Below, piece after piece: positions 4,264 to 12,031 of a DNA stretch of 32,384 nt. The notes below the pieces were generated by a model. It was given only the letters and a program-made list of their open reading frames with translations, did no database searches and was not told where the DNA came from. The stretch is from a virus, in the IMG/VR virus record IMGVR_UViG_3300025570_000061, positions 1 to 32,384 of that record; one strand, given 5' to 3'. The position numbers and the translations under genes were made by a program. The number at the start of each line of letters is the position of its first letter. Within the stretch, counting starts at the first letter, position 1.

Positions 4264-4512
4264 ATGAGTTTAAAAGTAGAAGCTCTTAGAGCAAAGTACC
4301 AAGCTGAAAAGCTTGAAGCAGTAGCAACCCTTGAAGTATATGTAAAAAATGCAGTTGGTATCGGTGAGCACCCGCAAATCATCGAAGAAATGGCAAAGCT
4401 TGTAGAGCAAGTAGCCAACGCTAACGACTGTATGGAAGCAATAGATGAGATTTTTATTCAATCTGATAATGCTGAAACAAATGTAGCTCAAGAAGGCTCC
4501 GTAAATAGTTGA
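4264..4512 (+). CDS. hypothetical helical protein
   Basis: An 82-aa acidic protein with long helix-prone stretches (ALRAKYQAEKLEAVATLEVY and EEMAKLVEQVANANDCMEAI). It has no recognisable domain. It is the last gene before the terminator at 4546-4577 and starts 5 nt after the membrane-protein gene, so the two are probably expressed together. Confidence 0.6.
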   Translation: MSLKVEALRAKYQAEKLEAVATLEVYVKNAVGIGEHPQIIEEMAKLVEQVANANDCMEAIDEIFIQSDNAETNVAQEGSVNS

Positions 4513-4545
4513 TTTATTTAGGCTAGACTAGAAAGACTAAGGAGC

Positions 4546-4577
4546 AAAGGGATCTATTAATTTAGGTCCCTTTTTTT
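4546..4577 (+). terminator. rho-independent terminator
   Basis: AAAGGGA (4546-4552) pairs with TCCCTTT (4567-4573) over 7 bp around a 14-nt loop, followed by a run of seven Ts (4571-4577). It lies 33 nt after the stop at 4512 and ends the first gene block. Confidence 0.7.
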
Positions 4578-4581
4578 GTTT

Positions 4582-4590
4582 GATATATAA
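4582..4590 (+). promoter_or_regulatory. candidate late-type promoter box, GATATATAA
   Basis: TGATATATAA lies just after the terminator and 3 nt before the ATG at 4594. The same GATATATAA string lies before 9307 and 27114, with variants before 17490 and 28457. It resembles the T4 late box TATAAATA. If it works here, the transcript would begin at or inside the start codon, giving a leaderless or nearly leaderless message. Confidence 0.35.
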
Positions 4591-4593
4591 TAA

Positions 4594-5607
4594 ATGAATA
4601 CATTCACTGGAAAAGAGGTGGCAGATCATATTGAGTATATTACTCCAGAAGATTCTGACATCCCGGATTATTTTATTAGCAAGTATATTCTACCTAATAA
4701 TGGTTGGAAGAATACCCCCATTAAACTAAAAGATCTACTAAAAGATAGAGACTTTAAAGACTACTATAAATCTGGCGAAGAGCGTTATGATCAGTATGAA
4801 GTTAGTGGTGATGACCTATACCAAGAGTTAGTTGTCTATAAAGGTCAATTGCTAGATGGTTATTCTAGAGCAGCGAGAATGTTGAGGCTTGGTGATAAGA
4901 CCGCAGCTGCATTTGTATTAGAACATAATAAATTTGTTATGGAGTCTAAGGTATTTGAAAGATATACAAAACTAGATTCTATCTCTAATAAATTATTAGG
5001 TGATTGTTTTAGACAGTGGGTATTAGATTTTGAGAATGGTAAGAAGTCTTCTAGCTACTCATTTGAAGTACAGAATCCAGGACTGACATTTGACTTAAAT
5101 TGTTCTATCTATTTTAAAGGTAAAGGATTTGAAGTCCTAAACTCTACTGGAGCTGATGGTAGAGATGAAGATGATGACGGTGATTGGCAAGATCCATTTA
5201 TTAATGTAGACTTTGCTTGTAACCCAGATTGGTTACCTACTTATTGGGAAGAGATTTACTTTCTTTTAGCAGATGTCTTAAGACATGAGATCGAACATAT
5301 TACACAAGATGGTATTGATATTGGTAATTATAGAAAGGGTAAGCCTAATGAGCCAGATGATATGATGAGGGCTTTAATTAATAATGGTATGTTACCAAAA
5401 ATGCATTATTTACTATTACCTAAAGAAGTTGATGCAAATCTACAAGGCTTAAGATTTGAAGCTAAGAAGAGAGGCGAGAAGACTATTGATGCTGTAAATA
5501 GGTATTTAGACTCAAAAGAGGAAATGGGAGAGATAAATAGTAAAGAAAGAGCTGAGGTCCTAGTTAAATGGGAAGCTCGTGCAAAACAATTAGGATTTAA
5601 ACTATGA
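4594..5607 (+). CDS. ParB-like domain plus HExxH metallopeptidase-like protein
   Basis: In the N-terminal third of this 337-aa protein, the phrase VVYKGQLLDGYSRAARML (80-97) looks like the ParB/sulfiredoxin-type core, with its typical G-x-x-R turn. The central part is acidic (DGRDEDDDGDWQD, 188-200). Then comes LRHEIEHITQDG (229-240), an HExxH zinc-peptidase motif with H231, E232 and H235; a third ligand may lie in the following acidic helices. No signal peptide is seen. The gene opens the structural block and overlaps the next by 4 nt (ATGA). Processing of virion proteins is conceivable, but both domain calls rest on short motifs. Confidence 0.5.
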   Translation: MNTFTGKEVADHIEYITPEDSDIPDYFISKYILPNNGWKNTPIKLKDLLKDRDFKDYYKSGEERYDQYEVSGDDLYQELVVYKGQLLDGYSRAARMLRLGDKTAAAFVLEHNKFVMESKVFERYTKLDSISNKLLGDCFRQWVLDFENGKKSSSYSFEVQNPGLTFDLNCSIYFKGKGFEVLNSTGADGRDEDDDGDWQDPFINVDFACNPDWLPTYWEEIYFLLADVLRHEIEHITQDGIDIGNYRKGKPNEPDDMMRALINNGMLPKMHYLLLPKEVDANLQGLRFEAKKRGEKTIDAVNRYLDSKEEMGEINSKERAEVLVKWEARAKQLGFKL

Positions 5608-5846
5608 GACATATAAAACCCATGTACGAGTCTACTAAGGCTGAATACAATACTAAGATTAGAGATCTTCAGGGTAAGATTAAAGATACTCATAATAAAA
5701 TGGATGATATTGCTGATAAACTTAGAGATGAAAAAGATCCAGTTAAAAATGAATTGTTAACTCTTAGTTTACAAAAAGAAGATTTAAAGATAGAGATGTT
5801 AAGAGTAGATCTTAAGATTAATAAAATCAAAAGAACCCAACTATAA
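5604..5846 (+). CDS. small coiled-coil protein with tag-like N-terminus
   Basis: The 80-aa protein begins MRHIKPMYES and is otherwise one long charged helix with heptad-like leucines and isoleucines (about 15-78), so it is probably a coiled coil. The opening resembles those of the next two genes and of the gene at 11399 (MK-aromatic/His-I-K...E), a pattern that may be a capsid-targeting tag. It is joined to its neighbours by a 4-nt overlap upstream and a 1-nt overlap downstream. An internal core or scaffold role is inferred. Confidence 0.6.
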   Translation: MRHIKPMYESTKAEYNTKIRDLQGKIKDTHNKMDDIADKLRDEKDPVKNELLTLSLQKEDLKIEMLRVDLKINKIKRTQL

Positions 5847-6202
5847 TGAAGCATATAAAAATATTTAATGATTTTGTTTCTGAGAATAGAAAGAACCAAC
5901 CCAATACTAAAAAGGCGGTTAAGAAAATTCAAAAGGTTATTGCTAAGCAGGGTGAGAAAATAGAAAAAGAATCTGCTAAAGCACAGAAGCTTGCTCAATC
6001 TAGTGAAGTTGTAGATAAAATGTCTGCTACTCTAGCTAAAATGAAAGTACAGCTTGCACAGGCTGAAGCTCAAAAGCAATCAGTAAAACAGAATATAGAA
6101 ATTAAGAAGGGTCAAATTAGAACTGCTAAAGATCAAGCTAAATCAGGTGATGAATTAGAAAAGAAAGCTAAAGAAACTAAAAAAGAAGAGTCTGATAAAT
6201 AA
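5846..6202 (+). CDS. coiled-coil protein with tag-like N-terminus
   Basis: A 118-aa protein that starts MKHIKIFNDFVSEN, like the neighbouring tag-bearing proteins. It continues as a lysine-, alanine- and glutamine-rich coiled coil (about 18-110, QKVIAKQGEKIEKESAKAQK and KVQLAQAEAQKQSVKQNIE). It is basic overall with a charged tail (KKEESDK). Such proteins often serve as core, scaffold or DNA-associated internal proteins in large phage heads. The position, with 1 nt shared upstream and 3 nt from the next gene, ties it to the 1016-aa protein. Confidence 0.6.
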   Translation: MKHIKIFNDFVSENRKNQPNTKKAVKKIQKVIAKQGEKIEKESAKAQKLAQSSEVVDKMSATLAKMKVQLAQAEAQKQSVKQNIEIKKGQIRTAKDQAKSGDELEKKAKETKKEESDK

Positions 6203-6205
6203 CCT

Positions 6206-9200
6206 ATGAAGTATATTCAAACTCTTAGTGAAAAAGGTAAACTTGAGTGGCAAGACTCTGATGCACCAGATGCAAATGGTAGGTTTAAAGACTTAAGTCC
6301 TAAAGATCTAGCAGCATGGTTAATTAAAACCAGAAAGGGTGATATGAAAAAGATCAGTGGTTCATTAAGTCAACAAGTTGCATTTAATAAGAACGACGAT
6401 CCTGAATACGCAAAGAAAATGGATAAGACTAGAAAAGAAGTTTACAAACAATTAGATAGAGAAGATCTATTAGAATCTGTAGATATGGATGATTTAGATA
6501 ATGCAAAGGAACAACTATCAAATCCACATACTATATTAGATATAACTTATGATAAAACCAGAAGAGGTGATAAGTTTGTTAGATTTGATTATGAAAATAA
6601 ATATGTTCCTGGTAAAATGTTAGATTCAGGTCCTCATTTTGTTAACGTACGCTATGATAGCAATAAAGACCTAAAGAAAATTAGTAAAGAACTTGGTATG
6701 GATCTTAAAGAATCTGTATTAAACGAAGAAGATACTTGGAATGACTATCCTGCTGCTGCAAAGAAGAATGCTCAAAAGGCAATTGACTGGAAAGAGGAAC
6801 ATGGTAGAGACGAAGTCGATGCTGGAACTCCAGTAGGTTGGGCAAGAGCTCATCAACTGGCTAAAGGTGAAAACCTTAGTACAGATACAGTTAAAAGAAT
6901 GTCAGCATTCAATAGACACAGAAAAAACTCATCAATCAAACCTGAATTAAAAGAAACTCCATGGAAAGATAGAGGCTATGTAGCCTGGTTAATCTGGGGT
7001 GGAGACGAAGGTGTTGATTGGGCAATTGAAAAATCAAAAGAAATAGACGCTATGAAAGAGTCAAAACAACTAAAGTACATTAAACCACTCAATGAAGCTG
7101 AGAAGTATATTACCGATGAATTTAAAGTAGGTGATAAAATCAAAACTAATTTTGGTGAATGGGAAGTAATTGAAACTGACTATGCACCTAATAAAAGTTT
7201 TATAGCACCTTTTATATTTAAAGGAAAGGATATGAAAAGAGTACCCATACCTAATCCTCCTAAGACTAATAAGAATGCTGTAGGCTATAAAGTTACTGAT
7301 GGTGACAAATATCCTATTATTGGTTTCTTATATCAATATAAAGATATAACTAAACTTGCAACAGTTGGTGTTGATGAATCAGTAGTTACTGAAGGTAAAA
7401 TTAAATACGCTAAAGGGAAGACATATCAATCAGAAGGCCATTGGACTGTAGTTGTTGATAGTAATTCTAGTGGTTTAGATATTAGAGTTAATCATTCAGC
7501 TGGTTGGAGATTAGATCCACATGATGAAAAAGAAGAAACTTTTGAATTATTAGATAATGGAAGACAAAGAGCTACGTTATATTTTAAATCAGGTAATATC
7601 GATAAGTTTGCTAAGCAGATGTTCGATCTTAATGATAGAACCACTCATGGAAATGCAACTAAATTAACTGCTAAAGATTATGGAGATATTCTTAGGGTTT
7701 GGATAGATATGAGAATGGCTAACGAATCAGTTAATGAAGCAGTAAAACCCATTAAGCTTTCTGGCAACTTAAATAAAGACTTAAAGGCTGTCACAGCTAT
7801 GGCAGAAAAAATGGTTAAGTATGCTAAAGACAACTTCAATACATATATACCAACAGGAGAAAAGCTCAGTCAACTAGAGCTCGGAGGTACTACAGAAAAA
7901 GATGTTTTGAAATACAATATCAATCACCTAGCAAAAGCAATCAATAAAGACTTAACAAAGAAGTATATGAAAGACTTTGTAGCTGAATCAGTTAATGAAG
8001 CATCTAGACGTAAAGTACACAAGGCTGCAAAGCAGGGAAGTTATCCTGCAGTAATCGTAGTTGTACAAGATGGTGATGTAATTCACCAAGAACCAGTATC
8101 TACTCCAGATGTTGCTCCTGCTACATTTAATGTAATGCAAGAGAGATACCCTAAAGCTGTATTGCATTTAGAAGATAATACGGGTAAGAGATTATTTAGT
8201 GAATCTGTTGCTGAAGGCATATATGCTAAAGAAAGTAAAATTGTACCTGGTGAATATATTAAAACTCAATATGGTTATTTCTATAAAAGAGTTGAAGGTA
8301 AAGTAGGAGGACAAGATGCTTATGTTGAAATAAAGAAAGGAAAAGAAGGAAAGAGAAAGACAAGTATTCATGATACAGTTGATTTTGATATAGTTGATAA
8401 ATCTGTAGCTCTTGGAGAATCTGTTACTGAAGGCATGTCTAAGTCTGCTATTAAAAAAGCTATTAAAGTTATCGATCAACAGATTGAAGACGAAGAGGGC
8501 GGAGATGGTGAGCCATTAGATAATGAAACTCTTCAAGCACTAGAGCAAGAAAGAGAAAGATTACTAAAAATGAATGAAAGTAAATTCTCACCTTTAGGAT
8601 ATGCTAAGAGAGTTATCTCTGGTGAAATTTCTTTAAAGGCCGCAATGAAAGAGGCTGGTATTTCTTTTAGTAATATAAGTAAATTAATTAAGCAAATCGA
8701 TAAGAGTTTTGATCTTGATGCTGCAGTTGCCGAAAACCGTAAGTATATTAAATCACTTAATGAAGGTTACTGGTCTAGTTACGACTATGAAAAGTGGACT
8801 AAAGAGAATGGTAAACCTAAATATCCAAAATGGGTAAAAGTTACTCTAAAGGAAATTGTTAAAGGTGGTTTCATGGATCCAGTTTATGATGACGAACACA
8901 ACTATATGGTTTTATGGTTAGCTTCATTAGAGACTAAAAGAAGATCTGAAATGTATGCTTATGATAAGAAAGGTATTAAAGAGTTTGGTAAAGTAGGTTA
9001 CGCGATGTATCAAAGATTCTATAATGACCTAACGGGCTACAACATGTTTTTTATGCAGGGAGCAATGTATGCATTAGAAGTTTCTAAACATATTCAAGAT
9101 AGAATAGCTAATGGAGAAGCTGTAGAACCAGCATACTATATGATGAAAGAATATTTTAATGGTTTTGGTATGAAGACTGATAGAAGTAGAGTTTTTAACG

Positions 9201-9256
9201 CTGCTTATGAGAAACTAGAGAAGTGGATGAAAGACAATCAAATCAAAACACTATAA
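6206..9256 (+). CDS. 1016-aa modular protein, candidate internal-head polyprotein
   Basis: It starts MKYIQTLSE, like a T4 capsid-targeting peptide. Linkers with E-S-V-x-E or L-N-E followed by A/G recur, with the final E near 174, 297, 396, 511, 598, 670, 742 and 853. Two of them (290-297 and 846-853) repeat the tag K-Y-I-K-P/S-L-N-E. Each linker is followed by a seemingly unrelated small domain. The piece after 174 (NDYPAAAKKNAQKAIDWKEE ... GTPVGWARAHQLAKGE ... MSAFNRHRKN ... VAWLIWGGDEGVDWA) resembles a module found in phage head-morphogenesis and protease proteins. Pieces after 598 and 671 are short and beta-rich, and the last piece (854-1016) is aromatic. T4 prohead protease cuts after hydrophobic-x-E, so a polyprotein cut into about nine pieces is proposed. 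Cleavage itself is inferred. Confidence 0.6.
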   Translation: MKYIQTLSEKGKLEWQDSDAPDANGRFKDLSPKDLAAWLIKTRKGDMKKISGSLSQQVAFNKNDDPEYAKKMDKTRKEVYKQLDREDLLESVDMDDLDNAKEQLSNPHTILDITYDKTRRGDKFVRFDYENKYVPGKMLDSGPHFVNVRYDSNKDLKKISKELGMDLKESVLNEEDTWNDYPAAAKKNAQKAIDWKEEHGRDEVDAGTPVGWARAHQLAKGENLSTDTVKRMSAFNRHRKNSSIKPELKETPWKDRGYVAWLIWGGDEGVDWAIEKSKEIDAMKESKQLKYIKPLNEAEKYITDEFKVGDKIKTNFGEWEVIETDYAPNKSFIAPFIFKGKDMKRVPIPNPPKTNKNAVGYKVTDGDKYPIIGFLYQYKDITKLATVGVDESVVTEGKIKYAKGKTYQSEGHWTVVVDSNSSGLDIRVNHSAGWRLDPHDEKEETFELLDNGRQRATLYFKSGNIDKFAKQMFDLNDRTTHGNATKLTAKDYGDILRVWIDMRMANESVNEAVKPIKLSGNLNKDLKAVTAMAEKMVKYAKDNFNTYIPTGEKLSQLELGGTTEKDVLKYNINHLAKAINKDLTKKYMKDFVAESVNEASRRKVHKAAKQGSYPAVIVVVQDGDVIHQEPVSTPDVAPATFNVMQERYPKAVLHLEDNTGKRLFSESVAEGIYAKESKIVPGEYIKTQYGYFYKRVEGKVGGQDAYVEIKKGKEGKRKTSIHDTVDFDIVDKSVALGESVTEGMSKSAIKKAIKVIDQQIEDEEGGDGEPLDNETLQALEQERERLLKMNESKFSPLGYAKRVISGEISLKAAMKEAGISFSNISKLIKQIDKSFDLDAAVAENRKYIKSLNEGYWSSYDYEKWTKENGKPKYPKWVKVTLKEIVKGGFMDPVYDDEHNYMVLWLASLETKRRSEMYAYDKKGIKEFGKVGYAMYQRFYNDLTGYNMFFMQGAMYALEVSKHIQDRIANGEAVEPAYYMMKEYFNGFGMKTDRSRVFNAAYEKLEKWMKDNQIKTL

Positions 9257-9275
9257 TTTAATAATATATTAGTAA

Positions 9276-9285
9276 GATATATAAA
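9276..9285 (+). promoter_or_regulatory. candidate late-type promoter box, GATATATAA
   Basis: AGATATATAAAC lies in the 50-nt gap before 9307, leaving 22 nt between the box and the start codon. This is a comfortable spacing for a late-type promoter with a short leader. The gap has no terminator hairpin. Confidence 0.45.
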
Positions 9286-9306
9286 CAAACGAAACAACAA
9301 TAAGAT

Positions 9307-10674
9307 ATGCCAGGTACACATCAAAAAACAGTTACTGTAGTCCCAGTCGATGACGCTTATGCGTGGTCTGCAATAGATGACTTATCAAATTCAACTGCGA
9401 CTTGGGTAACTATAGCTCAACAAGGCTCAACTGATACTTGGGATTTTACAGTAGTTGATAATCCAAGTTCTGCAGCAAGATCTGCTACATGTACTGTATT
9501 ACATTCAAACGGGGTTACGTCTGATTTTTTTACTATAGATCAAGCAGGTAGTGGTGGCGTAAGTACGCCGACAGGATCCTATGATACTTTAAACGGAACT
9601 CCTAGCTCTATTAATGAAGACGGTAGTTCGGTAACATTTACAGTTGCAGGTTCTAACTTACAAGCAGGAACTATACAATACGCATTAACTGGTACGGGTA
9701 TTACATCTAATGATGTTGGTGTTGGAATGAATGGAACTATTACTATGACTGGAGGTGTAAGTAACACAGGTTCATTAACAGTTCCAATCCTTGCGGATAA
9801 CTTTACTGAAGGTGCTGAAACACTTGTATGTACACTTGCAGGTACAGATTCGAATGGGATTTCAACTGGTAATTTAAGTACATCTGTAGTTATTAATGAT
9901 ACTTCTCAGAACCCTACATATAGTTATCAGATAAATTGGGATGAAAGTACTGCAACTCAATCAAACTGGGTAATTTCTAGTACAGCCGTAACAAGCAATA
10001 ACGTTACTAACGTAAGTAATGGTGCAGTAGTAACATCATTTACTGGAACGCCAGGTGATACAGTTTTAATTACTCTTACTGCCGGAGCTACTACTGGAAT
10101 GGACTTTACCCAGGTAGGTTCTAATGCAGTGATTACATCGGCAAACAATTCCGGACTTTCTATATTATCTGAAGATTTAACTATGTCAGGGTGGCCTGAT
10201 CAGTTAACTTTCTCAGTATCATGGGTTTTACCAGGTAGTAGTGCTGTAACAAACGCTACTTATGATGCAACTACTATAGCAGAAAGTTCTACTAGACTAA
10301 TTGCACTACACGGGCCTTTAGCAGGTTCATGGACTTGTAACGAAACTACGGTTGATATTACAGCTAATTATGAAGACATCGGTCCGGCGCCTCAGCCAGC
10401 AGTTGGAGACTCGCTATCAGGTGTATCTCCAAATGGACAAGCAGACTATTTAGTTGTCGCCGGTTCTGGATTACAGTCGACCACAGGTTCCGCAACTGGA
10501 CTGATAGGACAAGTACTATCAATTACGGAACAAGAAATTATGTTTATAGCTCCATGTAATCCTAGTAATCCCAGCACTACACTAATGTTTAGTCCTGGCC
10601 CGAGTCCGTCACCGTACAGTCCGTCACCAAGTCCGTCACCAAGTCCGACACCGTACAATCCGAATATCGGATAA
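9307..10674 (+). CDS. BACON / Calx-beta domain virion surface-type protein
   Basis: Residues 1-81 of this 455-aa protein have the BACON pattern: W-V-T-I near 33-36, a D/N-x-x-x-x-A-R-S-A strand, and a closing FTIDQAG. BACON domains are common in Bacteroidota and their phages and are linked to glycan or mucin binding. Residues about 90-198 resemble a Calx-beta repeat, with the typical DNFTEGAETLVCTLAG ending. Two more beta-sandwich-like segments follow. The last 30 residues are a Pro-Ser repeat (PSPSPSPTP type). No signal peptide is seen, as expected for a virion component. A capsid decoration or fibre-type adhesin is likely. Confidence 0.6.
   Translation: MPGTHQKTVTVVPVDDAYAWSAIDDLSNSTATWVTIAQQGSTDTWDFTVVDNPSSAARSATCTVLHSNGVTSDFFTIDQAGSGGVSTPTGSYDTLNGTPSSINEDGSSVTFTVAGSNLQAGTIQYALTGTGITSNDVGVGMNGTITMTGGVSNTGSLTVPILADNFTEGAETLVCTLAGTDSNGISTGNLSTSVVINDTSQNPTYSYQINWDESTATQSNWVISSTAVTSNNVTNVSNGAVVTSFTGTPGDTVLITLTAGATTGMDFTQVGSNAVITSANNSGLSILSEDLTMSGWPDQLTFSVSWVLPGSSAVTNATYDATTIAESSTRLIALHGPLAGSWTCNETTVDITANYEDIGPAPQPAVGDSLSGVSPNGQADYLVVAGSGLQSTTGSATGLIGQVLSITEQEIMFIAPCNPSNPSTTLMFSPGPSPSPYSPSPSPSPSPTPYNPNIG
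10603..10656 (+). repeat. short tandem repeat encoding a Pro-Ser tail
   Basis: Units of AGTCCGTCACCA or AGTCCGTCACCGTAC are repeated four times with minor changes, encoding S-P-S-P and S-P-S-P-Y steps at the end of the BACON protein. The stretch is visibly richer in G and C than its surroundings. Confidence 0.7.
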
Positions 10675-10710: not shown

Positions 10711-11391
10711 ATGGCTAAAAAAATATTATCATTTCAAGAGTATTCTGAAACTATAAAGGCAGATGCTAAAAATGAAATCTCTGAAGAAGAGAACGAAGAG
10801 TGTCCATGTGGTACTGACGAAGACGGTAACTGTATAGAATGCGAAGAAACTACTGAACTTCCTGCTGAAGAAGAGGAAGAAGAAAAAGAAGAAGATGGCG
10901 ATGATGACAGCGATGATGATTCTGATGAAGATTCTGATGACGACGATGACGAAGATGGTGACGATGATGAAGACGAAGATGACGATGAAGATGATGATGA
11001 AGAAGGTGAAGAAGAAGCTGGTGAAGAAGAGTCTGAAGAAGATGGTGACGAAGGAGAAGAAGTAGAAGAAGCTCCTGAAGCTGAAGCTGCTCCAGCAGAA
11101 GCACCTGCTACAGTAGAAGAAATGTTAACTGAAGCTCATCATAAAGTAAAGGAAGCTGCATGCGCTTATGAAAAAGATGAATATCAAGATCATACTTTAG
11201 AAATGTATATGAAGGAAAATGCTGCACTAATTGCTACTCTTGCTGCTACTGCAATGGAAGAGGGTTATAGTGAAGTTAGAGAAACTGAATTAACACAAGA
11301 AATGTACGAAGCAATGTTAAACGAGATAAAAGATGCTTATGCTAAAAAAATAGATGAGCTAAAAGAAACTTACGGCGCTGGAAAAGAATAA
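10711..11391 (+). CDS. extremely acidic low-complexity protein, possible head-core scaffold
   Basis: This 226-aa protein opens MAKKILSFQEYSE, which resembles the tag-like starts of its neighbours. It then has four cysteines (C31, C33, C41, C44; CPCG...CIEC) that could bind a metal. Residues 53-127 are almost entirely Asp and Glu. A hydrophobic-x-E-A step (VEEMLTEAHH, 135-143) then leads into a helical C-terminal domain to 226. Acidic core proteins such as T4 gp67 fill proheads and are cut by the prohead protease, so a scaffold or core role is plausible. DNA mimicry is an alternative. The function is inferred from composition and neighbours. Confidence 0.6.
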   Translation: MAKKILSFQEYSETIKADAKNEISEEENEECPCGTDEDGNCIECEETTELPAEEEEEEKEEDGDDDSDDDSDEDSDDDDDEDGDDDEDEDDDEDDDEEGEEEAGEEESEEDGDEGEEVEEAPEAEAAPAEAPATVEEMLTEAHHKVKEAACAYEKDEYQDHTLEMYMKENAALIATLAATAMEEGYSEVRETELTQEMYEAMLNEIKDAYAKKIDELKETYGAGKE

Positions 11392-11398
11392 TACGACT

Positions 11399-12031
11399 AT
11401 GAAATTCATAAAATCAATTAACGAATTAAACGAGGCAAGACAAGCTCCTGCTAAAACACTATTTAAAATGATAGTTAAGGGTAGTGCGTCCGAAATTGAA
11501 GGAGTTAAGATTTCTTCAGCAATGGCACAGGCTGCTTTAGATTGGTTTGATGGATCAGTCTACGCTAGAAAATACGAGAAGCAAGTTAAGACTGCAGGAA
11601 TGGGAGCTGTTGCTCCATTAATCTTTGGTGACAACTGGGGTATTAAGAAAAGAATTCCTTCTAAACTTAAAGCGGAATTTAAAGAATTGCAAGCTAAGTA
11701 TAAAAGAGTAAGACCTGAAAATGAGTCAGTTTTAACTGAAGCAGACGCTACTCCAACTATGTTATTAGCACAAGAGATTGAAGGTGCTGAATATCACATG
11801 GCTTTTTCAGATGGTGATATTGGTGTAGATGCTAGATCGACTAAGAAGACTTGGGACGATGGAGTACCTGTACTTAAGTATATTGCTAGAGCGCCTAAGA
11901 AATCTGTAGAAATACCAAAGGGTAAATTTGAAGTAGTTATCGATGATAAATACGGATGGTATTACTGGGAACATAAAGGTACCTGGTATGGAATGGAGCA
12001 AGATGGAGAAACACCTCCGTTTGAGTATTAA
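11399..12031 (+). CDS. two-part internal-head-type protein with cleavage-like linkers
   Basis: The 210-aa protein opens MKFIKSINELNE|A, the clearest tag in the window, and carries E109-S-V-L-T-E114|A, the same linker used in the 1016-aa protein. Part one (about 14-114) is basic and helical (KKRIPSKLKAEFKELQAKYK). Part two (115-210) is beta-rich and aromatic (VVIDDKYGWYYWEHKGTWYG). Both sites fit a hydrophobic-x-E prohead-protease rule. It lies 7 nt after the acidic protein and ends just before a strong terminator, so the genes from 10711 to 12031 form one unit. Confidence 0.6.
   Translation: MKFIKSINELNEARQAPAKTLFKMIVKGSASEIEGVKISSAMAQAALDWFDGSVYARKYEKQVKTAGMGAVAPLIFGDNWGIKKRIPSKLKAEFKELQAKYKRVRPENESVLTEADATPTMLLAQEIEGAEYHMAFSDGDIGVDARSTKKTWDDGVPVLKYIARAPKKSVEIPKGKFEVVIDDKYGWYYWEHKGTWYGMEQDGETPPFEY

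Follow-up and report, generated by a model that had tools for sequence, protein, structure and literature searches.

The window analysed here is the whole 32,384-base stretch of an IMG/VR virus record, and its open reading frame (ORF) listing contains one frame of 1016 amino acids without a stop (P0001, Table 1). As read from its sequence, P0001 begins with a short targeting-type peptide that ends in a site of the kind cut by gp21, the prohead protease of phage T4. Eight linkers follow, six of them of the ES-V type and two of them KYIK(P/S)LNE copies of the tag, which divide the protein into nine segments. Two further tagged genes lie nearby. The one encoding a Lys-rich protein is separate in the window and forms the N-terminal part of the polyprotein in four relatives (L023, L026, L031, L037), while the other, at 11399-12031, is a two-module version whose second module occurs alone as a tagged gene in G028 and its relatives. 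Homologues of the putative zinc metallopeptidase at 4594-5607 are present at 15 further loci, several of them with the head-targeting-like tag MKHIKAYESFVNEG, and in L022 the HEIEH protein forms the C-terminal end of a longer chain that bears a tag. Adjoining the polyprotein on its downstream side, positions 9307-10674 encode a 455-aa protein, possibly a decoration or adhesion protein, with relatives of 92 to 803 aa in related loci. Positions 10711-11391 encode a very acidic protein with the start MAKKILSFQEYSE, whose homologues start with MAK(K/Q/S)ILSFEEY and lie near the polyprotein in many relatives.

Table 1 Features of the polyprotein gene and of neighbouring genes in the window (↓, predicted cut).
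Feature	Position	Strand	Basis
HEIEH putative zinc metallopeptidase (LRHEIEHITQDG)	4594..5607	+	upstream of polyprotein
Tagged Lys-rich coiled-coil-like protein (MKHIKIFNDFVSE)	5846..6202	+	sequence comparison with relatives
Modular polyprotein gene, 1016 aa	6206..9256	+	ORF and relatives
N-terminal tag MKYIQTLSE (residues 1-9)	6206..6232	+	sequence; like tags on many ORFs of related genomes
Segment 1 (aa 1-174)	6206..6727	+	first ~95 aa are a stand-alone tagged gene in L029, G017:46148-46675
Linker ESVLNE, predicted cut after E174	6710..6727	+	motif
Segment 2 (aa 175-297), phrog_2859-type module	6728..7096	+	opens 228-aa tagged gene, L148/L151/L152
Internal tag copy KYIKPLNE, predicted cut after E297	7073..7096	+	motif
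Segment 3 (aa 298-396)	7097..7393	+	recurrence in relatives
Linker ESVVTE, predicted cut after E396	7376..7393	+	motif
Segment 4 (aa 397-511)	7394..7738	+	recurrence in relatives
Linker ESVNE, predicted cut after E511	7724..7738	+	motif
Segment 5 (aa 512-598)	7739..7999	+	recurrence in relatives
Linker ESVNE, predicted cut after E598	7985..7999	+	motif
Segment 6 (aa 599-670), small alpha/beta fold	8000..8215	+	recurrence, AlphaFold
Linker ESVAE, predicted cut after E670	8201..8215	+	motif
Segment 7 (aa 671-742)	8216..8431	+	recurrence in relatives
Linker ESVTE, predicted cut after E742	8417..8431	+	motif
Segment 8 (aa 743-853), helical	8432..8764	+	recurrence, AlphaFold
Internal tag copy KYIKSLNE, predicted cut after E853	8741..8764	+	motif
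Segment 9 (aa 854-1016), all-helical	8765..9253	+	recurrence, AlphaFold of piece alone
Second tagged protein, one internal linker ESVLTE↓A	11399..12031	+	sequence

The window linkers are not chance occurrences. A strict linker motif, ES[VILM]x?[NTAS]E, occurs six times in P0001, compared with a mean of 0.025 and a maximum of two in 5000 shuffles of the protein, and once in the 9339 aa of remaining ORFs of the window, at the linker of the 11399-12031 gene. Its density is 3.66 per 1000 aa in related multi-linker proteins and 0.24 over 447,570 aa of other ORFs. Over 77 linkers the P3 residue is Val in 44, Leu in 23 and Ile in 7 (V/L/I in 74 of 77), and the linker core ESVVNE differs by a single residue from ESFVNE, the tag core of other genes in the same genome. 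A preliminary description of this DNA had reported one uninterrupted frame with eight linkers, nearly all of them before alanine or glycine. The end residues are exactly as it gave them, and A or G follows seven of the eight linkers in P0001 (E follows the site at residue 174) and 53 of the 96 linkers in a wider count (background 13%, p = 2e-22).

A search of IMG/VR viral contigs returned 17 loci, and those of their homologues that are of the polyprotein type measure 466 to 1247 aa and have the shared blocks in other orders. This set was enlarged by scans with the C-terminal piece, piece 4 and one extra module, and removal of near-identical copies left 25 non-redundant multi-linker proteins. 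These comprise 139 segments (24 recurrent modules and 43 singletons) whose order and number differ from protein to protein, and all nine window segments are found again elsewhere. A particularly long string is the L201 chain of 1315 aa, whose frame reaches the locus end and which holds nine internal linkers by one regular expression and twelve by a broader one. Homology breakpoints were counted in strict alignments, centred on the linkers and spanning −8 to +3, which replaces a noisy version based on default BLAST. In separate alignment work, MAFFT put fragments in the wrong places on the full chain, and a collinear set was used instead. Counted in this way, a breakpoint lies at 70 of 77 internal linkers, compared with 18.0 (sd 3.6) for random positions and 19% of other glutamates, and P0001 has a few extra breakpoints at weaker ES/NES positions near residues 92 and 792. 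The shift in sequence character that had been noticed at each linker is thereby borne out more strongly than first described, in that homology to relatives begins and ends there. Among near-identical phages, G028:C1:104230-106101 and L192:7791-9839 have one cassette exchanged for an unrelated one between flanks of 95.9% and 97.4% DNA identity, with both junctions at linkers (left in FESFGS followed by LDE↓G or TNE↓A, right in ESVNE). On the evidence of these sequence comparisons, the polyprotein is of modular build and is shuffled at its linkers, and it is because of the IMG/VR relatives that the architecture of P0001 is settled. The multidomain, shuffled architecture of polyvalent proteins is present here, as are separable pieces divided by recurrent cut-like sites, a feature of viral polyproteins, the cutting itself being predicted.

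Pieces 1, 2 and 9, in the search for stand-alone segments that the preliminary description had suggested, were found also as separate short genes with an MKxIKxF tag of their own. Alone, piece 9 is a gene of 160-179 aa with the tag MK(H/Y)IKLFE in about twenty or more records, piece 2 is the start of a 228-aa tagged gene (L148, L151, L152), and piece 1 is a tagged gene of 95 or 175 aa (L029 and G017). Most relatives have segment 9 at the C-terminus, and others have it as a separate gene with its own tag. In six relatives, the internal tag in front of piece 3, or of the piece in its place, has kept its initial Met (KESKQMKYIKPLNE), and the window has the codon CTA at this position; judged from the sequence, the retained internal Met is likely a fossil start codon. 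For internal translation starting at the retained Met codons, which was considered as well, inspection by eye revealed no clear ribosome-binding site. The earlier suggestion that the gene joins, as a concatemer, tagged proteins that were once separate is thus well supported by the stand-alone genes for pieces 1, 2 and 9, the likely fossil internal starts and the shuffling at linkers.

Searches of the window segments against Pfam, NCBIfam, PHROGs and solved structures returned no function, the sole match being that of segment 2 to phrog_2859 (unknown function). Nothing in P0001 scored above the cut-off in Pfam/NCBIfam, scans in which no peptidase domain was found inside the polyprotein, and DUF5824 was the only match above the cut-off in other polyprotein members. 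The segment 2 module is a widespread head-associated domain of unknown function: in haloviruses, roseophages and Synechococcus phages it occurs in ORFs whose annotation reads portal, major capsid protein or prohead protease, and Salicola phage SCTP-2 has it as a small gene of its own close to a homologue of T4 gp4. AlphaFold modelled the full chain with a mean pLDDT of 60 and a pTM of 0.31, from an alignment that is poor for pieces 5-7. Stretches of low confidence (170-182, 283-306, 500-526, 584-596, 667-740, 845-854) contain or border seven of the eight linkers, and residues 322-463, which hold the linker at 396, are of low confidence throughout; the more confident units are 94-163, 610-665, 740-842 and 856-1016. 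One continuous fold across several linkers, which the preliminary description had named as evidence against its own reading, is not seen in this model, which is of low confidence for segments 2-5 and 7. When segment 9 was modelled alone, from just after E853, the prediction (pLDDT 94.4, pTM 0.87) shows an autonomous, compact fold. Foldseek searches with the full model and segment 9 gave no significant PDB match. A likeness to T4 Dmd (5hy3_B) over a stretch of ~57 residues, most plausibly segment 6, was rejected as weak (E 1.8, target TM 0.66).

The three longest polyprotein-bearing relatives (at least 100 kb; G006, 126 kb; G008, 101 kb; G017, 212 kb) each contain Peptidase_S77 and a gp23-family gene in addition to the polyprotein. 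Neither gene was found in the window, the 32-kb record being a fragment, and since control genomes gave no match to PF03420 or PF07068, the lack of a match in a short record does not show that the gene is missing. The prohead protease, which the preliminary description had wished to see placed in the full genome, was thus located in related genomes and not in the 32-kb record. Between portal and protease, a small protein carries the same tag, e.g., MKIIKTFEDFISE↓EALRAGEDS; this core-position protein has no Pfam match, so that equating it with T4 gp67 rests on its location (the gp67/gp68 position). The gene order in L149 is Portal_T4 (7.5e-72), an 838-aa polyprotein (7582-10098) and Peptidase_S77 (1.3e-12), and the polyprotein consists of the same modules with the core-position protein as its C-terminal end. 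An assembly error as the source of the L149 fusion was weighed against the independent contigs L181-L185, which show module insertion and a linker junction in the same core-position gene: their order is portal, core-position gene (with tag, inserted module and VLSE↓A junction) and S77, with gp23 after S77 in the longer records L182 and L184. L186, from a different T4-like lineage, has two multi-linker ORFs (4445-6618) between Portal_T4 (1.9e-70) and S77 (3.2e-26). The N-terminal region of the major capsid protein holds the conserved candidate sites MANL(I/L)NE↓(A/S) and KLYE↓DA. The relation to the T4 head programme that had been suspected from the window is supported by the S77 and gp23 genes in relatives, the tag on the protein of the portal-protease interval and the fusion of the polyprotein to it. 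In a further group of records (L018, L019, L068-L147), the S77 domain makes up the N-terminus of a long acidic protein that resembles a fusion of protease and scaffold (gp21-gp22).

The linkers read (V/L/I)-x-E, usually before A or G, and from this comes our proposal of prohead uptake by means of the tag and cutting into about nine pieces. P0001 is probably a polyprotein of prohead-core cargo built from cassettes, with the prohead protease cutting it after (V/L/I)-x-E. We infer targeting, cleavage, release and ejection as follows. The MKYIQTLSE tag, its internal copies or both would target the chain to a T4-type prohead core, and during head maturation an S77-family prohead protease would cut each (V/L/I)-x-E↓(A/G) linker on the C-terminal side of its Glu. 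About nine small proteins would thereby be set free in the head and remain with the DNA; these pieces would be packaged with it and, by analogy with the T4 internal proteins, at least some may be ejected into the host. The linkers would be short forms of the targeting tag and, at the DNA level, sites of cassette exchange between phages; with cassette swapping at linkers, each phage has its own selection and order of pieces. A point that counts against the proposed cutting is the P3 residue, mostly Val in the linkers, whereas T4 gp21 is described as cutting at L/I-x-E. We lean, with somewhat less confidence, towards the broader reading of a tailed-phage polyprotein: a head-packaged cassette array in one gene, with the prohead protease releasing the pieces in trans, one short sequence acting as targeting signal, protease site and recombination seam, and the injected set rebuilt by cassette swaps.

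Shuffling at linkers could be had from DNA-level homology alone, and P0001 might then be an uncut, beads-on-a-string multidomain protein that works as one chain in head or host, with linkers that are flexible joints and recombination seams. A single nucleotide form dominates the ESVVTE linkers (18 of 24), so that linker conservation may partly reflect DNA-level recombination and not selection for cutting, and T4-like marine phages do have long multidomain proteins with some shared modules (HTVC008M gp130, Melnitz). We nevertheless consider an uncut chain unlikely, given that the linker form is specific, (V/L/I)-x-E with A or G after it (p = 2e-22), and resembles the N-terminal tag core, that linkers were counted in 22 amino-acid and 52 nucleotide forms, that pieces occur elsewhere as separate tagged genes and vary freely in order and number, and that a T4-type prohead protease is present in related genomes.

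Cutting could also take place to another end or by another enzyme. The conservation, recurrence and sequence diversity of the modules, the upkeep of segments 1, 2 and 9 as separate genes and the compact fold confidently predicted for segment 9 all speak against a role as scaffold or core material that is cut up and lost in the manner of T4 gp22 and gp67, with no delivery of functional proteins; that L149 and L181-L185 have modules fused to the core-position protein fits such a role, as does the cutting of T4 gp22 and gp67 to several fragments by gp21 (PMC9026906), and we regard it as very unlikely overall. There is scarcely any chance, in our estimate, that P0001 is a polyvalent-type injected protein cut not by the prohead protease but by the neighbouring HEIEH metallopeptidase. 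Its gene lies just upstream of the polyprotein or of the split form, its homologues recur at the 15 further loci, and polyvalent proteins have been proposed as cut by embedded MPTase domains (PMC5512222), but several of the homologues bear the same head-targeting tag, so that the enzyme looks like cargo itself. Moreover, (V/L/I)-x-E cutting is the signature of gp21-type serine proteases, and a peptidase domain within the polyprotein was not found.

Prohead-core cargo cut by the prohead protease has its closest described parallels in T4, where gp21 cuts after L/I-x-E (the first site found was Glu-Ala) and N-terminal tags of 10 residues are enough for targeting (PMC9026906). The T4 internal proteins IPI, IPII, IPIII and Alt likewise have a short N-terminal tag with a hydrophobic-x-E end before the mature protein, genomes with an S77 protease, gp20-type portal and gp23 (here in the relatives), and a conserved tag in front of highly diverse cargo (PMC9026906, PMC3012670). 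They have one tag and one protein per gene, with the C-terminus of Alt also trimmed, whereas P0001 has nine segments in one frame with repeated internal tag/cut motifs and cassette exchange at these. T4 gp22 and gp67 are core-associated and cut by gp21 at multiple sites, and the L149 polyprotein is fused to the gp67/gp68-position protein; in contrast to the polyprotein, no exchangeable modules are known from these core proteins, and most of their fragments leave the head. Several Glu-ending motifs per propeptide are also found in phiKZ gp93-gp95 and SPN3US gp53/gp54, cut by gp175/gp245 (PMC10052503). In these giant-phage ejection proteins, however, the motif is S/A-x-E and the cuts strip propeptides from one mature protein (PMC10052503, PMC9026906), with no chain of several mature proteins, and the linkers here do not follow the S/A-x-E motif, their P3 being V/L/I in 74 of 77. 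Polyvalent proteins (Iyer et al. 2017, PMC5512222) are similarly long and multidomain, with domain shuffling and probable packaging and processing. They contain known enzymatic domains with proposed processing by embedded metallopeptidases (PMC5512222), in contrast to the prohead-protease-like linkers here, and neither an embedded peptidase nor other typical conflict domains of such proteins were found in P0001 with Pfam/NCBIfam. Finally, the Kyanoviridae “cytidyltransferase” multidomain proteins (HTVC008M gp130, Melnitz) share with relatives of the window protein DUF5824 and, by eye, a PGDK...KKYHELYG-like module, but have fewer pieces, a catalytic N-terminal domain and no regular ESVxE linkers. 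Our searches of open-access papers yielded no account of such a phage polyprotein, and a polyprotein-style cargo system with this combination of features appears to be undescribed in bacterial viruses.

To our knowledge, bacterial viruses do not use polyproteins in the way that many animal viruses do. The present data suggest that the source of the window is a T4-type marine phage that carries about nine small proteins in one chain, in the style of a cargo polyprotein. If true, a single promoter, start and targeting event would be enough for a phage to keep and reshuffle a large set of head cargo. Long proteins of marine phages could then be divided at (V/L/I)-x-E↓(A/G) linkers as a route to unknown phage cargo, and the specificity of prohead proteases outside T4 would become directly testable.
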